Of a stretch of 64,000 nt of DNA, positions 47,280 to 61,266 are shown in pieces. The position numbers and the translations under genes were made by a program. Each line of letters begins with the position of its first letter. Position 1 is the stretch's first letter. Source of the DNA: Roseburia hominis A2-183 (GTDB lineage Bacteria; Bacillota; Clostridia; Lachnospirales; Lachnospiraceae); contig NC_015977.1 of assembly GCF_000225345.1 (NCBI RefSeq), forward strand, positions 2,711,501 through 2,775,500. The letters run 5' to 3'. The notes below the pieces were generated by a model that saw only the letters and a program-made list of their open reading frames with translations, searched no databases and had not been told where the DNA came from.

Positions 47280-47763
47280 ATCTATACTCCCTTTCTGTTA
47301 ATAAATTATTAAATATGTATAAAGTATTCTTATAGCATAGCTATTCTAACGCTTTATCTCACAAAATGTAAGTGGCGTTTTTCAAGAAAAAACATCAAAA
47401 TAATAACATTTTTTAGGAATTTTCAACAGATTTTCGGGGGATTTTACAGAAGATTTCGTTCGCATGGAATATATATTTCATTATTGTGTGTCCACAACTT
47501 CAACTACTTTACCTTTGCTTCTTCGACATATCTGTCTCATGCACAAAACTCTTGATGTTGATAAATGCACCAGCAAAACCAAGTCACATCAAAGCTATTA
47601 TTTCATCCCCCCTATTACGTAGTGAAGAGGGATAGTTTTTTAGTATCTTTCGCTATCTCGAAGATGTAATAGTTGCGACTTTGGCCAGAAGTGGTAGATA
47701 CAAACGTGTTTTCTTCGCAGAGTACGAAACACAGCCATGCTATCCCTTCTATATTATTAGCGA
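47280..47763. other. Intergenic stretch at the old end of the CRISPR array
   Basis: No gene seen. AT-rich promoter-like sequence for the antiporter gene occupies 47280-47420. A CCCCCCT...AGAGGGAT dyad followed by TTTTTT lies near 47609-47640 and could be a plus-strand terminator. Degenerate repeat material begins at about 47764. Confidence 0.4.
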
Positions 47764-50700
47764 TATTTCAACCCACACTCCCCTCTCTGGGAATAACTCC
47801 ACTCTCACGCCTGTCTCCAAGCTGAGATCAACCTTCCAATCCACACTTTCCTCGCTGCGAGCGATCCAGAACGGGCAACAACATCAGCCATCTGACTACT
47901 TCAATCCTCGCTCCCCTCACAGGGAGCGACAAAACCAAACAATACAACGAGAGATCGTTGTAAAATTTCAATCCTCGCTCCCCTCACAGGGAGCGACCCA
48001 GAATATCGGTGATCGTGGTTGCTTCTTCCAATTTCAATCCACGCTCCCCTCACAGGGAGCGACTAATAAAAACGCAAATGGGTCATACTGATATTAATTT
48101 CAATCCACACTCCCCTCACAGGGAGCGACTTTTCTTGTTGATACTATCATATCACTTTAAAAAATTTCAATCCTCGCTCCCCTCACAGGGAGCGACACCG
48201 TGAAATCCATGTTCTGCTCCACATATCCAATGATTTCAATCCTCGCTCCCCTCACAGGGAGCGACAGTTGCGACCGTGGAGTCCGGGAACACTACAAAAT
48301 TTCAATCCTCGCTCCCCTCACAGGGAGCGACAAATAATGACTTGCCCTCTTTCATGTAATTCGTATTTCAATCCTCGCTCCCCTCACAGGGAGCGACGCC
48401 ACAGTTATCTCCTGTCCCGGCAGCCACTGCGATTTCAATCCACGCTCCCCTCACAGGGAGCGACGTAGCTCCGCTGTTTTTATAATTGTAGCAAGGGATT
48501 TCAATCCACGCTCCCCTCACAGGGAGCGACACACTATTCCCTTGGTGCTTTGCCTGTATCTGTGATATTTCAATCCACGCTCCCCTCACAGGGAGCGACA
48601 CACTATTCCCTTGGTGCTTTGCCTGTATCTGTGATATTTCAATCCACGCTCCCCTCACAGGAAGCGACACAAAGATGCTTCTTTTTGGTGTATATCCGAT
48701 CAAATTTCAATCCACGCTCCCCTCACAGGGAGCGACGCGCGTGCGATGGAAACTTTGAAGTACAGGTCGACATTTCAATCCACGCTCCCCTCACAGGGAG
48801 CGACCGATCTGCAATGCAGTGTATTTTTTCAATTCAAAATTTCAATCCACGCTCCCCTCACAGGGAGCGACTGATTTTTGTGGCGGGAATTTTAAAAAAT
48901 CCTTCAATTTCAATCCACGCTCCCCTCACAGGGAGCGACAAATCATAGTGAAGTTAAATTTGTAAAAGATATATTTCAATCCACGCTCCCCTCACAGGGA
49001 GCGACAAAAGGGGTGGTGCTAATGATAATTAAATACATAATTTCAATCCACGCTCCCCTCACAGGGAGCGACTTGGAAATAGTATACGCAAGTCAAATTG
49101 CAGATATTTCAATCCACGCTCCCCTCACAGGGAGCGACATAGCTGCGCCACTTGATATTGCTTCGCCATGGCGATTTCAATCCACGCTCCCCTCACAGGG
49201 AGCGACATATATCCGCATAACCACTCTATATCTTCAAAATATTTCAATCCACGCTCCCCTCACAGGGAGCGACGCACCTTGCGGAACGGAAATTCACTAC
49301 ACAGTAGATATTTCAATCCACGCTCCCCTCACAGGGAGCGACGACAACGCCATTGACCTTGTATGCGACAAGAAAATATTTCAATCCACGCTCCCCTCAC
49401 AGGGAGCGACTGTTGCAAACATGAGAAACGGCATGGGAGTATATATTTCAATCCACGCTCCCCTCACAGGGAGCGACAACAGCTTCGGAGCTCCCCAAAC
49501 TTGGAAACGGATTTCAATCCACGCTCCCCTCACAGGGAGCGACTTATGACGCGGGAAACTATGGACGGTTAAATGCATTTCAATCCACGCCCCCCTCACA
49601 GGGAGCGACACGCCGTGCTGTCGGCATCTGACATGGAGTATTTTATTTCAATCCACGCTCCCCTCACAGGGAGCGACATCCTTTACAAACATAAATTCAT
49701 AACCTAAATTATATTTCAATCCACGCTCCCCTCACAGGGAGCGACATTGGATTACACCTAAAAGCATCAATCAATGAGATTTCAATCCACGCTCCCCTCA
49801 CAGGGAGCGACATATACGGTCTCGCAGCGGAAAACGCAGAAGAGGGAATTTCAATCCACGCTCCCCTCACAGGGAGCGACCACAAGCGACGGTAACAACA
49901 CATCACAAGCAGATCATTTCAATCCACGCTCCCCTCACAGGGAGCGACCAGTAGTCATTGATCTGATTTCTTACGTTTGCCATATTTCAATCCACGCTCC
50001 CCTCACAGGGAGCGACGTGTGAAGAACAAGGTAACAGATGCCGGATGGTCAATTTCAATCCACGCTCCCCTCACAGGGAGCGACCGATTAAACTTATATT
50101 TCACAAACACTTTCGACAATTTCAATCCACGCTCCCCTCACAGGGAGCGACTGTGACTCGTCTTGATCTTGCTATTGACAATGTATTTCAATCCACGCTC
50201 CCCTCACAGGGAGCGACACAGCTCCTGGGTGGTACTTGATGCAAACTGGGGCATTTCAATCCACGCTCCCCTCACAGGGAGCGACATCGTGACTGCGTGT
50301 ATGTGCAGACCAAGACGGGCATTTCAATCCACGCTCCCCTCACAGGGAGCGACTGATAACGCCTAGACTTACACCGTAGGCGCGCAAATTTCAATCCACG
50401 CTCCCCTCACAGGGAGCGACTTCTTTGGTGAATTGTATCGGATAGGTGCATCAATTTCAATCCACGCTCCCCTCACAGGGAGCGACTTGGACTCACGGAA
50501 AAACACCGCAAACATCTGAAAATTTCAATCCACGCTCCCCTCACAGGGAGCGACGGGCATCGGGCAATGGATGATGCATGGAGCCATAATTTCAATCCAC
50601 GCTCCCCTCACAGGGAGCGACGATGGCGTACTGGCTGTCAGAACTTGCGCTTAGTATTTCAATCCACGCTCCCCTCACAGGGAGCGACGGCGTTAGGGTC

Positions 50701-53309
50701 TGGCGTGCTCCGTGGCGATGAGTTATTTCAATCCACGCTCCCCTCACAGGGAGCGACCATATAAGACGCCCTGGAATTCTGCGCCGACAGATTTCAATCC
50801 ACGCTCCCCTCACAGGGAGCGACGACATGGCTATTCTGAAGAACTGCGGCATCTCCAAGATTTCAATCCACGCTCCCCTCACAGGGAGCGACCGGACAGA
50901 TGGGCGGTAAGATGCTCGGAGGCGGAATTTCAATCCACGCTCCCCTCACAGGGAGCGACGGAGATCGCACAGGCAATAGCTGACGGAAACCTTATTTCAA
51001 TCCACGCTCCCCTCACAGGGAGCGACCGATCAGACAAACGTGACGATCTCCGTCGATCTCGATTTCAATCCACGCTCCCCTCACAGGGAGCGACAAAACA
51101 AACTCATGTTACGGTCGATTATGTACATGATTTCAATCCACGCTCCCCTCACAGGGAGCGACAAACGGGCGTAGCTTGTCACGTATGACGCTATTTATTT
51201 CAATCCACGCTCCCCTCACAGGGAGCGACTTTTGCGGCGGCAAACTGGGATGAATACCTCTGCATATTTCAATCCACGCTCCCCTCACAGGGAGCGACTG
51301 TCAAAGACGGAGTAACCAACTTGGACAACATATTTCAATCCACGCTCCCCTCACAGGGAGCGACCAGACACGGTAAATCTTGCCAGCACCTATAACTTCT
51401 ATTTCAATCCACGCTCCCCTCACAGGGAGCGACGGCGTTTGGAGTTATCAAAGAGATAATTCAATCATTTCAATCCACGCTCCCCTCACAGGGAGCGACG
51501 ACAACGCCACAGGATAACGACGAGGAGCAGGTTATTTCAATCCACGCTCCCCTCACAGGGAGCGACTCTTGCAAGCCGTCAAAATCGTCTGCAATAGACT
51601 ATTTCAATCCACGCTCCCCTCACAGGGAGCGACCACAAGCCTGTCATCCTCAATGTCGGAATATGATTTCAATCCACGCTCCCCTCACAGGGAGCGACAT
51701 CTGCAATTCAGCAGCGGATTCAGCAGATTGAATTTCAATCCACGCTCCCCTCACAGGGAGCGACTGTCAAAGATGGAGTAACCAATCTAGATAATATATT
51801 TCAATCCACGCTCCCCTCACAGGGAGCGACTTGTCCAAACGTCCATTATAAAATGCACACGACAGATTTCAATCCACGCTCCCCTCACAGGGAGCGACGA
51901 CGAACCGAACGGCGAATCGACGTTAAGTTTTATTTCAATCCACGCTCCCCTCACAGGGAGCGACATCGAAGCGGCGGCACAAGCTAGGCATATAGCGATT
52001 TCAATCCACGCTCCCCTCACAGGGAGCGACGAAGAAAGCGTTAAAAGCCACATGAATTCCTATATTTCAATCCACGCTCCCCTCACAGGGAGCGACCTCA
52101 ACCTTTGCTTCCATATCAATCATCTGCATATTTCAATCCACGCTCCCCTCACAGGGAGCGACGTGTTTCCTGTTCATTAGCTTTCAATGGAATCAGGGAT
52201 TTCAATCCACGCTCCCCTCACAGGGAGCGACTCCGTCTTGATGTGCTCGTCGACCCTGCTCGCAGATTTCAATCCACGCTCCCCTCACAGGGAGCGACTC
52301 ACAGGAGCTAAACGTTTAGGTCACTTTATAACAATTTCAATCCACGCTCCCCTCACAGGGAGCGACCTCTGCTCCATGATCTGCTCAACTAAAGCGTTAG
52401 CATTTCAATCCACGCTCCCCTCACAGGGAGCGACATTGCTGCGTTGGAATCCGTCATCATCATTTTTTATTTCAATCCACGCTCCCCTCACAGGGAGCGA
52501 CAGCTGCGCGAGGAGTACAAGGATTATGGTTATGCATTTCAATCCACGCTCCCCTCACAGGGAGCGACCATCATGGTAAGAGTCATCAAAAAAAGAGTGA
52601 GCATTTCAATCCACGCTCCCCTCACAGGGAGCGACGCCAGACAAGAAAAACATGGAAAAATGGCTTGATATTTCAATCCACGCTCCCCTCACAGGGAGCG
52701 ACGAAGCATAGGGGGGGCGGTTTTATGGATATTATGAATTTCAATCCACGCTCCCCTCACAGGGAGCGACGAATATTGGCGATAAGATTGTCTCTATTAT
52801 CAATATTTCAATCCACGCTCCCCTCACAGGGAGCGACGCATACTTTGCGTCCGTCTGTGCCAGCTCTACATCTATTTCAATCCACGCTCCCCTCACAGGG
52901 AGCGACGTATAATATGTATAAAAGAGATTACCATCCAGACATTTCAATCCACGCTCCCCTCACAGGGAGCGACCCGTACATGCCATTCTTACGCCGTGCA
53001 ATGCCGTATTTCAATCCACGCTCCCCTCACAGGGAGCGACTCTGCTCCATGATCTGCTCAACTAAAGCGTTAGCATTTCAATCCACGCTCCCCTCACAGG
53101 GAGCGACTCGCTGTGGAGTGAGCACCTGTGTGCCGGTATAGCATTTCAATCCACGCTCCCCTCACAGGGAGCGACTCGATCAAGTATGTATCTTGCCACT
53201 TAAGACCAGGATTTCAATCCACGCTCCCCTCACAGGGAGCGACATGAACACAAGTCCAATAGCGGCGCCCGTAGTAATTTCAATCCACGCTCCCCTCACA
53301 GGGAGCGAC
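47764..53309 (-). CRISPR. Type I-C CRISPR array, about 83 repeats
   Basis: A 33-nt repeat, read on the minus strand: GTCGCTCCC, then TGTGAG, GGGAGCG and the 11-nt end TGGATTGAAAT; the two 7-nt arms CGCTCCC/GGGAGCG form the hairpin cut by Cas5c. Spacers are about 33-36 nt. I counted about 83 units by eye. The leader lies at the cas2 side (53310-53494). Repeats are nearly perfect there, and at the other end they decay: a CCTCGCTCCC variant dominates from 47897 to about 48397, and the first two (47764, 47834) are badly degenerate. Some spacers are repeated (see findings). Confidence 0.98.
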
Positions 53310-53494
53310 AGCAAATATACACATAAAATTCCTTTGTGACCTCCTGTTTTCAACGCTTTCTTCCAAAAATTCCTTTACTCTTTCACGTTTTCCACAGACG
53401 ATAACTTGATTTTGTGCTATTTGCACTGATAAATTGTGCGCGAATGTTCCGCTGTATTTATGTACACTTTACATTCGCACTACTCTAAAAACTC
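53310..53494 (-). promoter_or_regulatory. CRISPR leader
   Basis: An AT-rich 185-nt stretch between the cas2 stop and the first perfect repeat, on the side with the best-conserved repeats. No gene. It should contain the array promoter and the Cas1-Cas2 integration site. Confidence 0.6.
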
Positions 53495-53785
53495 TCAGAT
53501 AATCAGCGGCGCCGTGACATCAAATGCCCTTTGCACACCGATATGTTCCACCTTACTCTTATACTTTTCCCCCATGACATAGTACCTCACACTGTCTTTA
53601 TCCACATCAATGATATCCTTCAACTGCTTTTTCAACATGACATACTGCGTCTGATCAACAATGCACTCAAATACAGAATTTTGTACCCGCTGTCCGTAAT
53701 TCGTACAGATTTTCGCTACCCGGGCAAGTCTTCGTACTCCCGCCGCAGTCTGTGTATTCACGTCATAAGTAATCAGCACTAACAT
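53495..53785 (-). CDS. cas2: CRISPR endoribonuclease/integrase subunit Cas2
   Basis: 96 residues. Ferredoxin-like fold with MLVLITYDVNTQT (catalytic-type Asp), RRLARVAKICTNYGQRVQNS and VFECIVDQTQY. It is the structural dimer at the centre of the Cas1-Cas2 spacer integrase. Last gene of the cas operon, next to the leader. Confidence 0.96.
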   Translation of the reverse strand: MLVLITYDVNTQTAAGVRRLARVAKICTNYGQRVQNSVFECIVDQTQYVMLKKQLKDIIDVDKDSVRYYVMGEKYKSKVEHIGVQRAFDVTAPLII

Positions 53786-53821
53786 AACTCACCTTCCTTC
53801 CAAACAGCATACAGTTTATCT

Positions 53822-54850
53822 TTACCGTTTAAAATATGGTGGATATGCATTGATATCTCCCCGCAGATACCGGGCAAGCAGCATCGCCTGCACATATGGC
53901 AGCAGCCCGACAGCTACTTTTTCTTTTAGGTAAGGATGCATGATCTCTTCACTCTTTAATTCCTGCCAGTTCTGTATCAGCACTCTGCGTGTGTCATCAT
54001 CCATAACAACCGCTCCGCTTTCCATTTTTCTGAACCCTCTTGCATTGATCTGCTGCTTGTTAATCATTGTAAGAACAAAACGGTCTGCCACGGGTGCCCG
54101 GAATTCTTCCATCAGATCTAACGCCAATGACTGCCTTCCCGGACGGTCGGTATGCAAAAATCCAACATAAGGATCAAGTCCGACCGAATAGGCTGCGCCT
54201 GCGCACTCGTTTACCAGCAGCGCATACGTAAATGATAACATTGCGTTGACATTATCCAGCGGTGGACGTTTATTCCTTCCGTGAAATACGAAGCTCTCTT
54301 TGTTCTGAAGAATCAGTTCATCAAATACACTAAAATAAGTGCTTGCCGCTTTTCCTTCATATCCCCGCAGTTCCTCCGAACTACCACTGTCTTTCACCGC
54401 TCTTAGATACTGTTTTAACTGCTCCGACGCATCTTTTAGCTTTTCTGTATCAAGGCGCAATGCATGATCCCGGATTGCCCGTTCAAGTACATAACGCTCA
54501 TTATGTACCTTTCCGAGAATCATATTTCTTGCAATCGCAAGACTTTCACCTTCCCGCTCCGACAGCCGATATTGTATTTTCCGCAAAACGACATTACCGT
54601 TTTCCTGTCCGATCATTCTGGCACAAAACGAATCATTGTGAAAAAAGCTCAGATTCACATTGTTCTCATTGCATTTGCGCATGAGCGCCGGACTGGCACC
54701 TACATAATTAAACGCAACGATTGCTTCTACATTGTGAATCGGTATCCGCATTGCCACCCGATCCTCTTTTTTGACGACAACGTTTTCTCCATCCAATGCA
54801 AGATATACATCCGGTGTTGTTACATAAAGAGTATTCAGCAATTTCTTCAT
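53822..54850 (-). CDS. cas1: CRISPR integrase Cas1 (type I-C)
   Basis: 342 residues from the ATG at 54850 (AAAGGAGG 7 nt upstream), overlapping the cas4 stop by 4 nt; an apparent 33-codon N-terminal extension is inside cas4. It starts MKKLLNTLYVTTPDVYLALD and holds the active-site glutamate in RGYEGKAASTYFSVFDELIL, the histidine in YVGFLHTDRPGRQSLALDLM and the following acidic residues EEFRAPVADRFVL. It catalyses insertion of new spacers at the leader end. Confidence 0.97.
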   Translation of the reverse strand: MKKLLNTLYVTTPDVYLALDGENVVVKKEDRVAMRIPIHNVEAIVAFNYVGASPALMRKCNENNVNLSFFHNDSFCARMIGQENGNVVLRKIQYRLSEREGESLAIARNMILGKVHNERYVLERAIRDHALRLDTEKLKDASEQLKQYLRAVKDSGSSEELRGYEGKAASTYFSVFDELILQNKESFVFHGRNKRPPLDNVNAMLSFTYALLVNECAGAAYSVGLDPYVGFLHTDRPGRQSLALDLMEEFRAPVADRFVLTMINKQQINARGFRKMESGAVVMDDDTRRVLIQNWQELKSEEIMHPYLKEKVAVGLLPYVQAMLLARYLRGDINAYPPYFKR

Positions 54851-55512
54851 TGCAATTCCTCCTTTAACATCTCCGACACATAGGCATCCGCAGGCTGTGC
54901 TCCGGAAAGTTCCGGCAGACAGATGTTGTTTAAGGAACACTGCCTGCAATATGTGCCTGTCTTTACCATCGGTGTATATTTTCTGCTGTAATATGCATGC
55001 ATTTCTTCAAAACAAGACCGTACACTCTGTCTCAATTCCTCTGTAAACAGCACTTCCGTTCTGCGTCTCGTTTCTCCATAATACAAATAGCCCTTTGGAA
55101 TTCTGGTCATAAGCATCTCTTCCAGACACATTGCCTGCGCCATAAGCTGCATTTCATCTGCATTGTGCGGCTTTGGTTTTCCGCGCTTATATTCCACCGG
55201 CACGGCAATGTACGTTCCCTTTTGTCCAGCTAATGTGATGCCCTCCGGTGCCGGATGAAACTCCACAACATCACATTCTCCGCTGATTCCCATCTCTCTG
55301 GAGAAAACCTTCATCGCCCGCACCATGATAACCCCGTTTCTTTTTTCGTGAAAGTCCGCATTGTGCGCATTTTCATGCATGACCCTTCCCTCAAATGTCC
55401 GTACATTCTCTTCCCACTGCTGCTCAATATGAATCAGAGCCCATTGTCTGCGGCAAAAAACGAAATGCTGAATTCCCGATAATAATAAATAATCCTCCTC
55501 CTGATATTCCAT
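54847..55512 (-). CDS. cas4: Cas4 exonuclease
   Basis: 221 residues from the ATG at 55512 (GGGAGA about 5 nt upstream). The four cysteines of the iron-sulfur cluster are in FVFCRRQWALI and YCRQCSLNNICLPE. The RecB-like nuclease residues lie in GECDVVEFHP and VPVEYKRGKPK. Cas4 trims prespacers and selects those with the correct PAM during acquisition. It lies 29 nt after cas7 and is translationally coupled to cas1. Confidence 0.95.
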   Translation of the reverse strand: MEYQEEDYLLLSGIQHFVFCRRQWALIHIEQQWEENVRTFEGRVMHENAHNADFHEKRNGVIMVRAMKVFSREMGISGECDVVEFHPAPEGITLAGQKGTYIAVPVEYKRGKPKPHNADEMQLMAQAMCLEEMLMTRIPKGYLYYGETRRRTEVLFTEELRQSVRSCFEEMHAYYSRKYTPMVKTGTYCRQCSLNNICLPELSGAQPADAYVSEMLKEELQ

Positions 55513-55541
55513 ATGTTTCTCCCTGCGATAGCCACGCAATA

Positions 55542-56429
55542 CTATTCCATACAGGTACAGGTAACTCCCTCAGGCAGCTGCTCCGGCAATGTAACCTCAT
55601 AATCTGAAAACGCCCTTGCCAAATCAACTCCAGGTTTTCTTGCCACCTTGACAGCTTCAAACAATTTATAAGACGGTGCATTTCCAAGTTCGCTGTCGTG
55701 CTTAAAAATGATCAGTTTTCTGACTGCCATCTTGCCGCGTGCCGCCGCATGATCATTCTCAAACATATTCAGAATTGCTTTCCAGAGCAATTCCAGATCC
55801 TCTTCCGAAAAACCGGTCACTTTTCTCGCCAGATTTGCAGACACATATCCCTCTACCCGGTACAGACCATACGGAACAATATATTTTCTTCCCATTTCCG
55901 TTCCTTTTTTGGCAGCATCCTCCTCCGTCGTGATTGCCACTCTGGTAATCGTGATCTCCTGTGGAAGAATCGGATCAACGGATTTCGCAAATCCCATCTG
56001 CACCGGTCCGCGTACCTGTCCACAGTTTAAATTTGCTTTCACAAAAGTGGTCATAACTGCTCCGAATGTACGAATATCATAGAAATTCTGACACATAAAG
56101 TCACGAACCTTTACGTCCAGCATTGGATCTGTCTTCTTTAAATTCTTAATCTCCTTTTCGTCAATGCCAAGTGACTGGAATGCTCCAAGATCACTGCGGT
56201 TTAACGGCACATTGTCCTTGATATAGATTTTATATCCGGTCGTATCCTCCTTGAGTGTCTCCACATAGTTGCGGATCTTTCGCTTCAGGCACACATCTGT
56301 CACGAGACCGTAACCCGTTTCCGGATCAATTCTCGGCATATTGCCGGCATCCGGATCTCCATTTGGATTTCCATTCTCCACGTCAAATAGTACTACAAAA
56401 TCATATCTGTTCCTAATTGCCTCTCCCAT
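55542..56429 (-). CDS. cas7: Cascade backbone subunit Cas7 (Csd2)
   Basis: 295 residues. It starts with the RRM strand RYDFVVLFDVENGNPNGDPD and contains the Gly-rich GQVRGPVQMGFAKSVDPILP, both typical of Cas7c/Csd2. Several copies coat the crRNA spacer in the I-C effector. AAGGAGG lies 9 nt upstream, within the end of cas8c. Confidence 0.96.
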   Translation of the reverse strand: MGEAIRNRYDFVVLFDVENGNPNGDPDAGNMPRIDPETGYGLVTDVCLKRKIRNYVETLKEDTTGYKIYIKDNVPLNRSDLGAFQSLGIDEKEIKNLKKTDPMLDVKVRDFMCQNFYDIRTFGAVMTTFVKANLNCGQVRGPVQMGFAKSVDPILPQEITITRVAITTEEDAAKKGTEMGRKYIVPYGLYRVEGYVSANLARKVTGFSEEDLELLWKAILNMFENDHAAARGKMAVRKLIIFKHDSELGNAPSYKLFEAVKVARKPGVDLARAFSDYEVTLPEQLPEGVTCTCME

Positions 56430-56430
56430 C

Positions 56431-58182
56431 TTAGTTTTCCTCCTTCTTTGTATATCGTTTCTGTGTCTGGCAATAATACCCCAGCTGAAAGGCTCCCTGT
56501 TCCGGCAGATTTAAACGCTTTGGGAAACTCTCCCCAATCACTTCCGCAAGTTTCCCAATCTGTCGGTTAAAATAAACTTTGTGTCCTTCGTTTGCCAGTT
56601 TCCGCAGATGCTTCTGCGCCAGATTCAGCAATAGCGGAAAAATCTGTGCCGGGGTCGCTGCTGCCGAATTGAAGTACTTGTCTTTGATCGTCGTGTTAAT
56701 TCCTGGATTCGCTTCCTGCTGCAAATGCTCTAAAACCGCAAACAGGCGCCCCAGTGTGTATGGTACATTTTTGCTCTCCTCATTTATCATTTCCTGCAAT
56801 ACCTCCTTGGGACAGTCTTTGTTCTCATTCTTCAGATAATAGGCCTTTATCATAGCCGCTCGCTCTCGTGTTATCCTGTGTTCCGCCCGGATTCTTAACA
56901 TAACGGCGTTTAGCAGCGATGCCGGATACTTTCCGCCTGTCAGAACCGCTTTTAGCGTATCCGCTGCCATCTGTGGTGACGGAGACTTGTCTCTCGCATT
57001 TTGGTTTACGGTCTCTGACATCAATTTCCAGATTGGAATGATGGGATACTCCTTTTGCCGCGCATTAACAATCCGCAGACGCTCCTGATGTTCATTGACA
57101 TGCCGGATCATAGTGCCAAAAGAATCCCTCATAAAAAATCGGACAGTCAGTCTGGCCGCATTCGGTGCAAGTCCCAGCACATAAAAATGTCTGTCGGGAT
57201 CCAGTCGTATATCCTCGATCTGTACCGGCTCCCCGTTTGCCACCTTCCCGATAATTGCCCGAAGTTCGCCATCTGTCATACCACTCTCATCTGTCAGACC
57301 GAACATCGCCATCATACCGACATCCTGATAGAGGCTCTCTCCTCCTTCCGCCCAGCATACCACGGTTGTATCCCCGATAGTTCCCGTGTGAGCCCGGTCA
57401 TTCAGAAGTTCATTTAACGCTGTGGTGTAGGCAAATGCCGCATACTCACCCACCGGAGCATTGGCACCCTGTTCCTTCTCATAGGAACAGAAGGACGCTG
57501 CATTAAAAGATACCAGTGACGCTCCCATCGCCTGTGCGCCGCGAACCCCCTTAATGCTCGGATGCAGCACTGCAAGCTTGTCTTTTTTCCCGGTAACCAG
57601 ACACAACGTCTGCCCGCTTTCATCCTTCCTGTCATAAAACTGCTGCCATGCTTCACGTATTGCAGGATCCTCTGTCACTGCTTCTCCTTCATAATAAAAT
57701 AGAAGATTTACTCCTGCCATCAGATCGCTCCAGTTATCCTCTATGTCAGTACACTGGCGCGCCGCATCCGGGCTCCAATACTCGAAATAATGACAGATCG
57801 CTTCTGCTGCCGGCGTGTGGATATCAGAAAGCAATTCCATGTGCTTTTCCATGCAGGCTTCATAGCACTGACTGGTTCGCTCTGGTTTTCCTTTTTCATC
57901 AACACCAAGAATATAGGTCGCATTGTCGCACAAAAAGTTCGGGCAAACCGCCACGGATCTCTTCTCCGGATGAGGTACTTCCATCATCCGCGCAACAAAA
58001 ACCGTTTTTTTCTTGCTGCCTCCCGTCTCCTGCGCCACCTTCAACGGGATCAACCCTAGTACGTGTCCCTGCCGATCCAGATTCAGTCCATAGGAAACTT
58101 TTACTTTTCCCCAACCCGGCTTTGCAATCCGCCCCTGCTTCAACAAATCTTCATAATGTTCCACCAATGCCTGTAAAATCAT
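56431..58182 (-). CDS. cas8c: Cascade large subunit Cas8c (Csd1)
   Basis: 583 residues from the ATG at 58182, overlapping the cas5c stop (ATGA). It starts MILQALVEHYEDLLKQGRIA and has the Csd1-like blocks LNLDRQGHVLGLIPL, NFLCDNATYILGVDEKGKPE and LVSFNAASFCSYEKEQGANA. The C-terminal part (about 460-583) is the small-subunit-like segment; in I-C a Cas11 protein is made from an internal start in this region. Cas8c reads the TTC PAM and opens the DNA. Confidence 0.95.
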   Translation of the reverse strand: MILQALVEHYEDLLKQGRIAKPGWGKVKVSYGLNLDRQGHVLGLIPLKVAQETGGSKKKTVFVARMMEVPHPEKRSVAVCPNFLCDNATYILGVDEKGKPERTSQCYEACMEKHMELLSDIHTPAAEAICHYFEYWSPDAARQCTDIEDNWSDLMAGVNLLFYYEGEAVTEDPAIREAWQQFYDRKDESGQTLCLVTGKKDKLAVLHPSIKGVRGAQAMGASLVSFNAASFCSYEKEQGANAPVGEYAAFAYTTALNELLNDRAHTGTIGDTTVVCWAEGGESLYQDVGMMAMFGLTDESGMTDGELRAIIGKVANGEPVQIEDIRLDPDRHFYVLGLAPNAARLTVRFFMRDSFGTMIRHVNEHQERLRIVNARQKEYPIIPIWKLMSETVNQNARDKSPSPQMAADTLKAVLTGGKYPASLLNAVMLRIRAEHRITRERAAMIKAYYLKNENKDCPKEVLQEMINEESKNVPYTLGRLFAVLEHLQQEANPGINTTIKDKYFNSAAATPAQIFPLLLNLAQKHLRKLANEGHKVYFNRQIGKLAEVIGESFPKRLNLPEQGAFQLGYYCQTQKRYTKKEEN

Positions 58183-58826
58183 CGCAGCACCTCGCAATCT
58201 GCCACATGGATCACGCCGTTTTCCATCTTTGCACGAAAGAACAGCGGACGAATGTTTGCCGGATCTGAGAAGTCAAGATCCCACAACATATAGCCGAGAT
58301 CCCTTGTCTCCTGAATAGCCGGAATCTCTCCGCCCTCCCACTCCTTGAAATTCGCCGGGAATTCCCGACATCCAAAATATGGTTCGTGATAGCACTGTCC
58401 CTTTCTCAGGCGGCGCTTTATGATATCCTGAAACTTTCCCGGATTATCTCCGGCTGCCGCCTTCTCTGTAAGGGTAAAATGTGCTTCAATCACATATCTG
58501 ACATCCTGCAGAACCAATGATGCTCTCTGCACAATATCCTTTGATGTGTTAATATACAGTTCTGTGCGTCCGCCGGTCATAGCTGCTCTTACACTGCTCC
58601 CCAGCACCTTGGACTGCACCTCATTTCTCCGTATGTTTGTCATCTGAATAGGCGCCAACACATAAATGTTGTCAATATGCCACTGCAGGCCTGGGTGCCA
58701 GTATACTGCCTCGAGCATTCCCCGCGCCGCCGACGGTGTCATCACATCATAGCTGACGCGTTCCACCTTCATCTCCGGCCGGCTGAAGCATGCAAAATTC
58801 CCCCACACTTCCATTTTTACTGCCAC
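58179..58826 (-). CDS. cas5c: Cas5c (Cas5d) crRNA-processing nuclease
   Basis: 215 residues from a GTG at 58826 with AGGAGG 8 nt upstream; an ATG at 58828 is in another frame. It starts VKMEVWGNFACFSRPEMKVE with the Cas5 RRM, followed by DVMTPSAARGMLEAVYWHPG. In type I-C, which lacks Cas6, this subunit cuts the repeat at the base of the hairpin and leaves an 11-nt handle. It is the first gene of the cas5-8-7-4-1-2 operon. Confidence 0.95.
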   Translation of the reverse strand: MAVKMEVWGNFACFSRPEMKVERVSYDVMTPSAARGMLEAVYWHPGLQWHIDNIYVLAPIQMTNIRRNEVQSKVLGSSVRAAMTGGRTELYINTSKDIVQRASLVLQDVRYVIEAHFTLTEKAAAGDNPGKFQDIIKRRLRKGQCYHEPYFGCREFPANFKEWEGGEIPAIQETRDLGYMLWDLDFSDPANIRPLFFRAKMENGVIHVADCEVLR

Positions 58827-58852
58827 ATATCATTCCTCCTTTCATTTATTTT

Positions 58853-58869
58853 TTCATTTAATATGTTTT
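58853..58869 (+). promoter_or_regulatory. Predicted CreR-type target site (TTC + 14-nt match)
   Basis: TTC (58853-58855) followed by ATTTAATATGTTTT (58856-58869). The 14 bases equal the first 14 of the pseudo-spacer at 58982-58995, in the same orientation. TTC is the type I-C PAM in the correct 5' position. The site falls at about +5 to +21 of the predicted cas5c transcript. Confidence 0.7.
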
Positions 58870-58880
58870 AAAGTATTTAT

Positions 58881-58909
58881 ACAATATAATATATTATTAT
58901 GTTTGTCAA
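58881..58909 (-). promoter_or_regulatory. Promoter of the cas5-8-7-4-1-2 operon
   Basis: On the minus strand a perfect TTGACA (58909-58904), a 17-nt spacer and TATTGT (58886-58881). Predicted start near 58874. Confidence 0.65.
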
Positions 58910-58920
58910 TACATTTTTTA

Positions 58921-58949
58921 TTGAAAAAAACGTTATATTTGTATACACT
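58921..58949 (+). promoter_or_regulatory. Promoter of the crRNA-like RNA
   Basis: TTGAAA (58921-58926), a 17-nt spacer and TACACT (58944-58949). The predicted start, 7 nt later, is exactly the G of the pseudo-repeat GTC at 58956. Back-to-back with the cas5c promoter. Confidence 0.55.
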
Positions 58950-58955
58950 GATTTT

Positions 58956-59030
58956 GTCACTTTATAAGTGTGGATTGAAATATTTAATATGTTTTTCTTT
59001 CATCAGGGCGGCAGATTTCTGCCGCCTTTT
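58956..59030 (+). ncRNA. creR: crRNA-like regulatory RNA (CreR-type)
   Basis: About 75 nt on the strand opposite to cas. A 26-nt pseudo-repeat (58956-58981) begins GTC. It keeps a short hairpin CACTT-TAT-AAGTG in place of the CGCTCCC/GGGAGCG stem, then has TGGATTGAAAT, identical to the 11-nt crRNA handle. The pseudo-spacer ATTTAATATGTTTTTCTTTC (58982-59001) follows. An intrinsic terminator, GGCGGCAG/CTGCCGCC with TTTT, ends it at 59030. Its first 14 spacer bases match the cas5c leader beside TTC. Inferred role: it guides Cascade to repress the cas operon without cleavage. Also lies just after, and convergent with, cas3. Confidence 0.75.
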
Positions 59031-59040
59031 GACCACTCTT

Positions 59041-61266
59041 TTATCCGAACAATCCATATCCTGTACTCACATCCATCTGAAGTCCGGTATCCTCATGATA
59101 CTGGTTCATATCCCGAAGCACATACATCCCCTCTCCGATTCCTTCCACACAGCCGGCATCGTACAATGCTTTTAAATGATTCGGATATACATTCACCGCA
59201 TACTGCCCCAGCTTTCGCATAAGTTCTCTTGAGACCTTTCCCTTTTCCATCTCCTCTATCCACAATTCCGCTTCACCGACCGGAATATAAATCGTCTGTG
59301 TCTCACTCTCAATCAGATGAAATTCCCTTGCCACCGTTGCAAACGGAAAGCAATCCCCATTGATTCCTTTTCCGGCAGTAAATGCATCCATTATCTTCTT
59401 TTGATCCAGATTCTCTCTCCCCAGAATCTCACGATACTGCTTAAAATAGAATGCGATCGCCTCCGGCGCTGCCGGATCTTCGTAACAACGCAGGGTCTGC
59501 CTTAACGCGCTGATGTTCTGTGCAAAATATACCGATGCATCGCCTTTCAAACCGAACAGATATACCTTGCTCTCCTCTGGGGAATGCGTCCCCTCCCGGT
59601 TGCATCTGCCCGCCGCCTGTATGAGTGCATCCAGTCCGTTCTCCTGACGATATACACACGGAAAATCCAGATCTACGCCCGCCTCCACAAGTGAAGTAGC
59701 GATCACCCTGCAGGGCACATGATGTTCCAGTCTCTCTTTGATCTCGCGCAATTTCTCTTTGCGATGCTCCGGGTACAATAATGTTGTGAGGCAAAATGCT
59801 CCCTCTCTCGGAATTTCTTCAAAAAGTTCCTGTGCCAGATTTCGACTGTTTACAATGCAAAGCACCTGCTCCTGCGCAGTCAGACAGTCGATCAATTTTT
59901 CCCGTTCCATATTGCCGGCTGCAACAATCGATGTTCTGCGCAGTTTTTGAAAAAGAATATCTGTATGTTCACAGATTTCTCTTACCTGCGTCTGCGGTAT
60001 ATATTTTTGGATCATTTCATCCAATACCGGCTGCGTAGCCGTACAAAGAACGATTGTTGAATGGTAATGCGCCGCCAGTTCTGCGATTGCCGCAACACAC
60101 GGTTCCAGATATGGAATCGGCATTGTCTGTGCCTCGTCAAAAATAATGACACTGTTTGCCATGTTATGAAGCTTTCTGCATTTTGAACTGCGGTTCGCAT
60201 ACAACGATTCAAAAAACTGCACCGCAGTCGTCACGATCACCGGCATGTCCCAGTTTTCGGTGGCCAGAGCCTTGCGGTATGCCGCTTCATTCTCCGCCTT
60301 ATCCTCCGTCAGATCGTAGAGAATTCCGGAATGATGTTCCAGAACATTTTTCTCTCCTAAAATAGAGCGGAACACCTCTGCATTCTGGTCTATAATCGAT
60401 GTGTACGGTATCACATAAATAATCCGCTTCATCTTTGATTGTATCGCATGCCGCAGTGCAAAGCCCAAAGATGCCGTGGTTTTCCCGCCTCCCGTGGGTA
60501 CCGTCAGCGTATAGATTCCGGGCGGCAATTCACTTCCTTTGCTCATACAATCCTGCAAAACCTGATTTCTTATACTGCAGAGTATTTTCTGTTTGTCGCT
60601 TTTGAAATCCGTTTTTTCCAGCCATTGTTTTATATGGTTGTCAAAACGTTCTGCCAAAACCTTCAGGGAATCATATTCTCCCCTGACTGCCTGATTCTCC
60701 TTCATAAACGCTTCCGTATCCAGATAATCCGCATCTACCAGGCAGGAATACATCATCCGAATAAAAAAAGACATCGTAAAACAGGGATTGCTTCCATCCC
60801 TACAAAATGCAGGAATATTCACATCCTCCGGTACGATATCTCTCTTCCATGCCGCATAATCCGGCAGACTTTCCGCTCCTTTTATTCTTCCAAAAAACGT
60901 GCCGTCTCCTTTATTGGAAATCCGGTAGACGCCTCCGTTCAACAACCCAGAATGATGCTCGGCAATCGTCATTGCAAGCGGTATGTTTTCTTTTGCTATT
61001 TTCATCGCCTCAACCGCCCCCGCAGTCGAATGATCCACCTTTGCCGTGTGTTCCGGATCCGCAATCCGCCTCTGAAATGCCTCGGAATACTTTCCAATAT
61101 CGTGAAGAAGTCCGCAAAAATATCCCTGTTTTCCACAACCGAACTCCTCCGCAAACTGCTGTGTCAGACATGCGGTCCCCTCAGAATGGCTTTTTACTGT
61201 CTGAATCTTTCCGCTCGCATTGATGTGAGCAATCATACGCTTCCCCGTCACCTTATCTTCTACCAC
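59041..61266 (-). CDS. cas3: Cas3 nuclease-helicase
   Basis: 741 residues. The N-terminal HD nuclease shows HSEGTACLTQQFAEEF, LLHDIGKYSEAFQRR and DHSTAGAVEAM. The superfamily 2 helicase has LTVPTGGGKTTASLGFAL (motif I), VIFDEAQTMPIPYLEP (motif II, DEAQ instead of DEAH), and LIQAAGRCNREG (motif VI). It is recruited by Cascade and degrades the invading DNA. The GTG at 61266 follows a GAGGGGG stretch; the ATG ten codons later (61236) is an alternative. Unlike the usual I-C order, a 214-bp gap with the crRNA-like gene separates it from cas5c. Confidence 0.95.
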   Translation of the reverse strand: MVEDKVTGKRMIAHINASGKIQTVKSHSEGTACLTQQFAEEFGCGKQGYFCGLLHDIGKYSEAFQRRIADPEHTAKVDHSTAGAVEAMKIAKENIPLAMTIAEHHSGLLNGGVYRISNKGDGTFFGRIKGAESLPDYAAWKRDIVPEDVNIPAFCRDGSNPCFTMSFFIRMMYSCLVDADYLDTEAFMKENQAVRGEYDSLKVLAERFDNHIKQWLEKTDFKSDKQKILCSIRNQVLQDCMSKGSELPPGIYTLTVPTGGGKTTASLGFALRHAIQSKMKRIIYVIPYTSIIDQNAEVFRSILGEKNVLEHHSGILYDLTEDKAENEAAYRKALATENWDMPVIVTTAVQFFESLYANRSSKCRKLHNMANSVIIFDEAQTMPIPYLEPCVAAIAELAAHYHSTIVLCTATQPVLDEMIQKYIPQTQVREICEHTDILFQKLRRTSIVAAGNMEREKLIDCLTAQEQVLCIVNSRNLAQELFEEIPREGAFCLTTLLYPEHRKEKLREIKERLEHHVPCRVIATSLVEAGVDLDFPCVYRQENGLDALIQAAGRCNREGTHSPEESKVYLFGLKGDASVYFAQNISALRQTLRCYEDPAAPEAIAFYFKQYREILGRENLDQKKIMDAFTAGKGINGDCFPFATVAREFHLIESETQTIYIPVGEAELWIEEMEKGKVSRELMRKLGQYAVNVYPNHLKALYDAGCVEGIGEGMYVLRDMNQYHEDTGLQMDVSTGYGLFG

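Follow-up and report, generated by a model that had tools for sequence, protein, structure and literature searches.

A CreR-type crRNA-like RNA predicted to target the cas5c leader of its own type I-C CRISPR-Cas locus

The primary study of CreR, the cas-regulating RNA, is reportedly that of Liu et al. 2023 in Cell Host Microbe, and Shmakov et al. 2023 in NAR are said to have predicted, for type I systems in the main, standalone repeats whose guides are directed at cas promoters. For class 2, Workman 2021 reportedly described the autoregulation of Cas9 by a natural single guide. In the passages of three reviews that treat it, CreR is a crRNA-like RNA partly complementary to the promoter of its own cas genes (PMC13131331, PMC12948488, PMC12737573), and the systems named there are I-B, I-E and V-A (PMC13131331) or type I and V-A (PMC12737573). 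CreA, of the CreTA/CrePA modules, is described in excerpt as having degenerate repeats ('one or two') and a short match, and as controlling a promoter through Cascade (PMC9458426), with a seed given in a passage elsewhere as 11 bp (PMC10989794). Racrs, or solitary repeat units, among them RacrIC1, figure in the excerpt of another source as viral inhibitors, a I-F one acting via an aberrant Cas subcomplex (PMC10651486). An I-C candidate also appears in the excerpted part of a survey of structured RNAs (PMC9067536), but its position, about 300 bases upstream of cas3, is not that of the element considered here. Our literature search, run without the full text of Shmakov 2023 and Liu 2023, found no CreR described for I-C, and since those texts lay outside the search, an I-C prediction may already exist.

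The window, the 64-kb stretch of Roseburia hominis A2-183 DNA analysed here, carries on its minus strand a type I-C locus with cas3, cas5c, cas8c, cas7c, cas4, cas1c and cas2. An element at 58956-59030, in the cas3-cas5c interval but on the other strand from cas5c, very probably (we would put it at about 0.92) encodes a CreR-type crRNA-like regulatory RNA of type I-C, targeting its own cas5c leader. The features are as follows:

58956..59030, plus strand: creR-like RNA gene of about 75 nt (pseudo-repeat, handle, guide, terminator), called from sequence, fold and 54 loci with a pseudo-repeat and matching guide
58921..58949, plus strand: promoter-like site of the RNA gene, TTGAAA-17-TACACT, ending 6 nt before the G of GTC
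58956..58970, plus strand: GTC and degenerate 5-bp hairpin of the pseudo-repeat, stem CACTT-TAT-AAGTG, the C of GTC being the first stem base
58971..58981, plus strand: 11-nt 5′ handle TGGATTGAAAT, identical to the end of the array repeat
58982..59004, plus strand: guide (pseudo-spacer), 23-24 nt up to the terminator stem, its first 14 nt matching the cas5c leader
59005..59030, plus strand: terminator-like hairpin (59005-59028) and T tract (TTTT, 59027-59030), occupying the place of a second repeat
58853..58855, plus strand: TTC PAM of the target, directly before the 14-mer on the same strand
58856..58869, plus strand: protospacer matched by the guide, within the cas5c leader at roughly +5 to +18 from the estimated start site of cas5c
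58881..58909, minus strand: cas5c promoter-like site by consensus, TTGACA-17-TATTGT
58179..58826, minus strand: cas5c (TIGR01876, E 3.4e-51), leading gene of the operon that follows the target
53495..58197, minus strand: cas8c, cas7c, cas4, cas1c and cas2, downstream of cas5c in the same direction
59041..61266, minus strand: cas3, converging on the RNA gene
47760..53310 (approximate ends), minus strand: CRISPR array, 81-83 repeat copies reported, at 66-69-nt spacing

The array spacers in the window are 33-36 nt long and the array repeat ends in TGGATTGAAAT. As a separate observation on the array, two neighbouring units at 48498-48635 carry an identical repeat-spacer stretch (100% over 69 nt), pointing to a recent spacer duplication.

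The window RNA resembles CreR in being a crRNA-like RNA directed at its own cas promoter, to which it has partial complementarity beside a PAM, and in controlling no toxin gene in the window, where cas5c directly follows. It differs from the CreRs of the review passages in belonging to type I-C and in having one pseudo-repeat followed by a terminator-like hairpin, whereas a two-repeat mini-CRISPR is usual for CreR, although not defining; its family adds a class of targets upstream of the -35 box. Standalone repeats with a cas-promoter guide are likewise what Shmakov et al. 2023 reportedly predicted as crRNA-like regulatory elements. The natural single guide of Cas9 represses its own cas promoter, as is proposed for the window RNA, but it is class 2 and tracrRNA-derived. 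An ordinary array crRNA would have the form repeat-spacer-repeat with a spacer of 33-36 nt, whereas here the repeat is solitary, with about 23-24 nt to the terminator stem. With CreA, as excerpted, the RNA shares a degenerate repeat, a short match and predicted promoter control by Cascade; CreA, however, targets a toxin promoter, while the window RNA targets the cas operon, although in three relatives (L173 of genome G006, L175 of G007, and L172) a DUF3990 pair leads that operon. The RNA is not of the CreTA/CrePA antitoxin kind, since its target precedes cas5c in the window, and toxin-free control does not extend to the three relatives, where the DUF3990 pair follows the target. A solitary type I-C repeat is shared with RacrIC1, but the Racrs of the excerpt are viral, phage-borne and apart from cas, whereas the window RNA sits in a full cas locus with a matching guide and PAM. 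Comparison of 58850-59040 with 50,697 phage records gave no match, and viral_contigs held no exact handle-plus-seed match.

The pseudo-repeat spans 58956-58981 (GTC, hairpin and handle), and the solitary pseudo-repeat opposite to cas that the first-pass annotation had described, with GTC, 5-bp hairpin and exact 11-nt handle, is present letter for letter, as are the divergent promoters it had placed 11 bp apart, the two -35 boxes being separated by that distance. Its promoter at the first base of the pseudo-repeat agrees with a -10 box ending 6 nt upstream, while the terminator it proposed is borne out by the fold and the relatives but not by a stricter terminator scan of the stretch, which found none; it is for that reason that we call the terminator from fold and relatives. 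Four promoter-like sites were found in the cas3-cas5c stretch against 1.8 expected from shuffles, and consensus promoter matches here, taken alone, are modest evidence. The 76-nt RNA is predicted to fold at -24.2 kcal/mol (z -4.95) into three hairpins, a small one at the 5′ end, a weak one in the middle, within the guide, and a strong one at the 3′ end. A search of the whole window against Rfam gave no family at gathering score.

Guide bases 1-14 (from 58982) are identical to 58856-58869, and positions 15-18 are mismatched, so that the letters uphold the earlier claim of a 14-base identity lying behind TTC in the right place and orientation. This 14-mer is present at just these two places in the window, and the target pattern TTC-ATTTA-N-TATGT-N-TT has a single occurrence in the 3.59-Mb genome. 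Simulation of 200,000 leaders with unchanged dinucleotide composition yielded the 14-mer in 24 and the 14-mer behind TTC in one. Both TTC and TTT are given as I-C PAMs in the relevant passage on Neisseria (PMC10865793). The window's match (14) is shorter than most in its family, with one core mismatch, at position 15.

Whether guides of this kind match their own leaders was surveyed in two samples. The first comprised 84 loci: the best 80 of 164 relatives found by a cas5c search, the window and three same-genus loci. A scan of the strand opposite to cas5c for the handle, with 0-2 mismatches allowed and PAMs left out of account, gave 51 candidates in 46 loci; 39 of the 51 matched their own leader (score >=10), compared with 2 of 510 shuffled guides. 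All 32 candidates with 0-1 handle mismatches had such a match, the 12 failures all having two mismatches, and the 39 matches, chosen without a PAM rule, lay behind 36 TTC and 3 TTT. Guides swapped to other loci's leaders also scored >=10 in 77 of 2295 cases, many of them between close kin. When the same 84 leaders were scanned without the handle (TTC plus 13 core positions), 43 matches placed the guide opposite to cas and nine placed it on the cas-sense strand; a handle preceded 36 of the former and none of the latter. The second sample, genomes of the class at 60 of 66 places, yielded nine positives. Under the rule for the combined set (TTC or TTT and at most 2 mismatches of 13 core positions), which 5 of 1080 shuffled guides passed, 54 of 145 regions were positive: 41/81 close loci (L003 included), 9/60, the three same-genus loci and one phage-labelled scaffold; this is no prevalence, since L003 and L172-L175 were added after matches had been seen there. 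The 54 positive loci carry 52 different guides, identical ones being shared by L053/L062 and L032/L137. A loose whole-locus scan (handles with up to 2 mismatches of TGGATTGAAA) returned nothing in 15 plasmid I-C loci (L157-L171), and the cas3-cas5c distance is at most 111 nt in 9 of 12 annotated plasmid I-C loci. The same loose scan also returned array fragments in L017, L029 and L073; on inspection by eye these looked like repeats matching repeats, and they were excluded. Among the loci sampled so far, in which other phyla are poorly represented, the RNA has been found in Clostridia-type loci and in L035 (labelled Melainabacteria) and L053 (labelled Phascolarctobacterium).

Guide and target also change together. 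In 139 close guide pairs, which are not independent of one another, core changes had a counterpart on the other side 445 times and lacked one 150 times, while at positions 6 and 12 of the same pairs the counts were 2 and 231; in the same-genus pair G006/G007, positions 13 and 17 have changed alike in guide and target. Co-variation of pseudo-spacer and promoter target in relatives, which the first-pass annotation had named as a check on its reading, is thus strongly positive (39/51 against 2/510, and co-change with the PAM kept). It had further held that loci keeping the handle and losing the match would speak against it, yet of 47 regions with a handle of 0-1 mismatches opposite to cas5c, 45 keep a target by the combined-set rule, and the two exceptions, L112 and L121, are not convincing as lost matches, their handles lying at -391 and -15 from cas5c, unlike the rest. 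In L027 the handle has decayed (TGGATAAAAAG), the hairpin is kept and the guide has no match to its own leader, in which the guides of L040, L030 and further loci still have a target, as if this were a dying copy or a chimeric bin; it is the only credible case of a hairpin kept and a match lost.

How the guides pair is informative. Across the 54 loci, in whose selection positions 6, 12 and 16 onward were left unscored, matches occur at positions 1-5 in all 54, at 6 in 16, at 7-11 in 50-54, at 12 in 8, at 13-15 in 50-53, at 16 in 43, at 17 in 35, at 18 in 19, at 19 in 10, at 20 in 11 and at 21-24 in 16-18, so that positions 6, 12, 18 and 19-24 stand near or below the level of 21-24. The stop of pairing after 14 nt that had been claimed therefore holds in the window and fails as a rule, the family pairing as 5+5+5 with positions 6, 12 and 18 free. 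For the type I-E Cascade, a passage of a 2015 review gives flipped bases at 6, 12, 18, 24 and 30 and a seed of 1-5 and 7-8 (PMC5965380); a term search of two I-C structure papers found no such statement for I-C. Because the mismatches fall at Cascade's flipped bases, the profile looks like that left by a type I Cascade R-loop and unlike RNA-RNA pairing. Matches at position 12 (8/54) and at 19-20 (21/108) are rarer than at 21-24 (p ~0.007 each, kinship uncorrected), a hint that longer pairing may be selected against.

The remaining anatomy is conserved as well. The pseudo-repeat begins with GTC in 47 of 52 placed loci; of the 48 of these with a -10 score of at least 4, 33 have a -10 box ending 6 nt before it, and the box is TATAAT in 26 loci. 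Given the GTC start and this fixed spacing, transcription should start at the repeat. A stem of at least 4 bp abuts the handle in 48/54 loci, against 616/2700 shuffled sequences, which serve as the control, a re-dealt-arm statistic being circular where stems have been selected. Handle base 6 is that of the commonest handle-like 10-mer (at least 4 copies) in the locus in 30 of 32 loci (Fisher 2e-6), base 4 following the host 10-mer less well (24/32). Since base 6 tracks the host array, the RNA appears matched to its own Cas5c and Cascade, and together with the exact handle in the window this is the cognate handle of a CreR. A pattern search identified a terminator-like hairpin in 40 of 54 loci and none in the other 14; where present, its stem begins a median 25 nt after the handle (interquartile 23-25.25). 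In two I-B systems, according to passages of the two reports, spacers of at most 24-26 nt repress without interference (PMC10989794, PMC10551041); the short guide and the early stop of pairing both fit binding without attack on those data, if by analogy the rule extends to I-C. At the level of sequence, then, the anatomy, the PAM, the Cascade-type pairing and the co-variation of guide with target and of handle with host array can be regarded as established, and function as a guide is supported as well as sequence alone allows.

Where the target lies relative to the cas promoter divides the family in two. The promoters were placed by consensus in 51 of 54 loci (the exceptions being L172, which gave no placement, and L044 and L141, set aside because their promoters are weak), the start sites being consensus estimates. 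In class A (33/51, the window included), the target centre has a median of +16.5 from the estimated cas start (sd 12.7), a placement that would suit a block at or just after initiation. In class B (18/51), the target lies upstream of the -35 box, its centre at -52.5 (sd 4.2); 13 have the PAM on the promoter side and five have the target on the other strand, and, whichever strand it is on, the 17-nt target has its end 38-53 bp before the cas start. The RNA's own promoter was considered as the true class B target and ruled out, since spacing to the RNA start varies (sd 19.5 against 4.2 to the cas start). Promoters of the two classes are similar, with mean -35 matches of 5.39 in B and 5.58 in A, -10 matches of 4.78 and 4.64, and an exact TTGACA in 11/18 and 23/33. 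On a Cas5c tree, with L172 labelled A by default and L093-L152 left out, neither class is a single clade; class A is clearly clustered (16 changes, 0/500 shuffles as low) and class B less so (10 changes, 12/500 shuffles; 4 changes, 42/500). Part of the tight class B spacing is therefore ancestry.

From this arrangement we infer transcription, processing, repression and sensing along the following lines. Transcription of the RNA would begin with the first base of the degenerate repeat, driven by a promoter of its own. Cas5c, the crRNA-processing protein of I-C, would cut at the foot of the small hairpin, so that the usual 11-nt handle remains, and the RNA would be loaded into Cascade. The guide would then pair with the cas5c leader beside TTC in 5-nt blocks (1-5, 7-11 and 13-17 in the family, up to 14 in the window), forming a short R-loop in which Cascade binds and Cas3 does not attack. 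Cascade lying across the cas5c transcript start would repress the cas5c-cas8c-cas7-cas4-cas1-cas2 operon; we speak of repression because of known CreR biology and the position of the target. The level of Cascade would in this way be held steady, rising when array crRNAs or anti-CRISPRs draw Cascade away, although sensing of anti-CRISPRs and of crRNA load is suggested by analogy only.

Other explanations have to be set against this. A plain antisense RNA, whose 14 nt would pair with the cas5c 5′ UTR without Cascade, draws on the fact that the window RNA is complementary to the predicted cas5c 5′ UTR; across the family, however, the guide is the cas-sense strand in 6/54 loci, where no pairing with cas mRNA is possible, and the target lies upstream of the estimated start in 18/51, although cas3 read-through could still carry it there. 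The cas-strand guides and the upstream targets lead us to reject this model as highly improbable, and a PAM and mismatches at 6, 12 and 18 would be meaningless for RNA-RNA pairing. Still harder to believe is a functionless decayed repeat with a leftover self-matching spacer: the repeat is indeed degenerate and the RNA was not found in 40/81 close loci, yet 54 loci carry 52 different matching guides behind a PAM, with handle and promoter spacing kept, shuffled guides (2/510) and simulated leaders (1/200,000) rarely do as well, and the handle outlives the match in only 2/47 regions, neither convincing.

The class B site bears on the sign of control, being also where an activator would sit, so that repression is less obvious there. 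RNA-guided activation or mixed control, with Cascade at about -52 helping polymerase at least at upstream targets, would account for a class B target centre that is fixed relative to the cas start (median -52.5, sd 4.2) and not to the RNA start (sd 19.5). We nevertheless consider it very unlikely, since class B promoters, in contrast to activator-dependent ones, are as near consensus as those of class A, part of the tight spacing reflects common ancestry, known CreRs repress and the window itself is class A; equally consensus-like promoters favour repression in both classes. A bolder joint proposal, which we regard as a long shot, is that in class B, about a third of loci, CreR-loaded Cascade, bound on either strand at a constant position near -52, is a natural RNA-guided transcription factor that contacts RNA polymerase instead of simply blocking its way, either as an activator or with a sign that depends on Cascade supply, and that in the G006/G007 clade one guide controls both a DUF3990 toxin-like pair and the cas operon through their shared promoter, so that disabling Cascade would set off an alarm. 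The best reading remains that the RNA is a CreR-type autoregulator of I-C, in a solitary-repeat, terminator-ended form that appears to recur in Clostridia.

Absence from 40/81 close loci, 11 of them with a gap of at least 150 nt, indicates that the RNA is dispensable. Its presence goes with the cas3-cas5c gap: among 77 measured loci, it is found in 37/48 with at least 150 nt and in 3/29 below. In L004 and L017, sisters of L005 with a nearly identical Cas5c, the leader with promoter, target and RNA is absent as a whole and cas5c lies 45 nt behind cas3, which suggests a joint loss relative to L005. Genes have also entered the controlled operon. DUF3990 plus a partner stands between the controlled leader and cas5c in L173:5188-6079, on the minus strand of L175 (1955-2849) and in L172:2629-3556, three loci of one clade in which the operon then continues with cas5c. 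The pairs in L173 and L175 are PADLOC candidates PDC-M10A/B, and that in L172 was judged by eye from translations. DUF3990 presumably has an ADP-ribosyltransferase-like fold, and the pair is a candidate defence or toxin module placed under Cascade control; a literature search returned no paper with both DUF3990 and CRISPR. L172 itself is MT836695.1, labelled Bacteriophage sp. (unverified), with a bacterial-type I-C cas operon and creR; it is probably a mislabelled bacterial scaffold. In the Butyrivibrio bin L003 (1619-2577), a DUF4417 protein and a CPCC Cys-rich protein lie between the creR leader and cas5c.

New here are the two target classes, around the cas start and near -52, and the relatives in which a DUF3990 pair comes first in the controlled operon. 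With a recurrent, self-contained autoregulator in I-C, a further major type I system would come under RNA-guided self-control. The 52 guide-target pairs form a natural set that spells out the pairing rule of Cascade, 5-5-5 and fading after 17, and the short guide offers a template for gene repression while Cas3 is active. The two target positions, finally, pose a testable question, namely how Cascade meets RNA polymerase.
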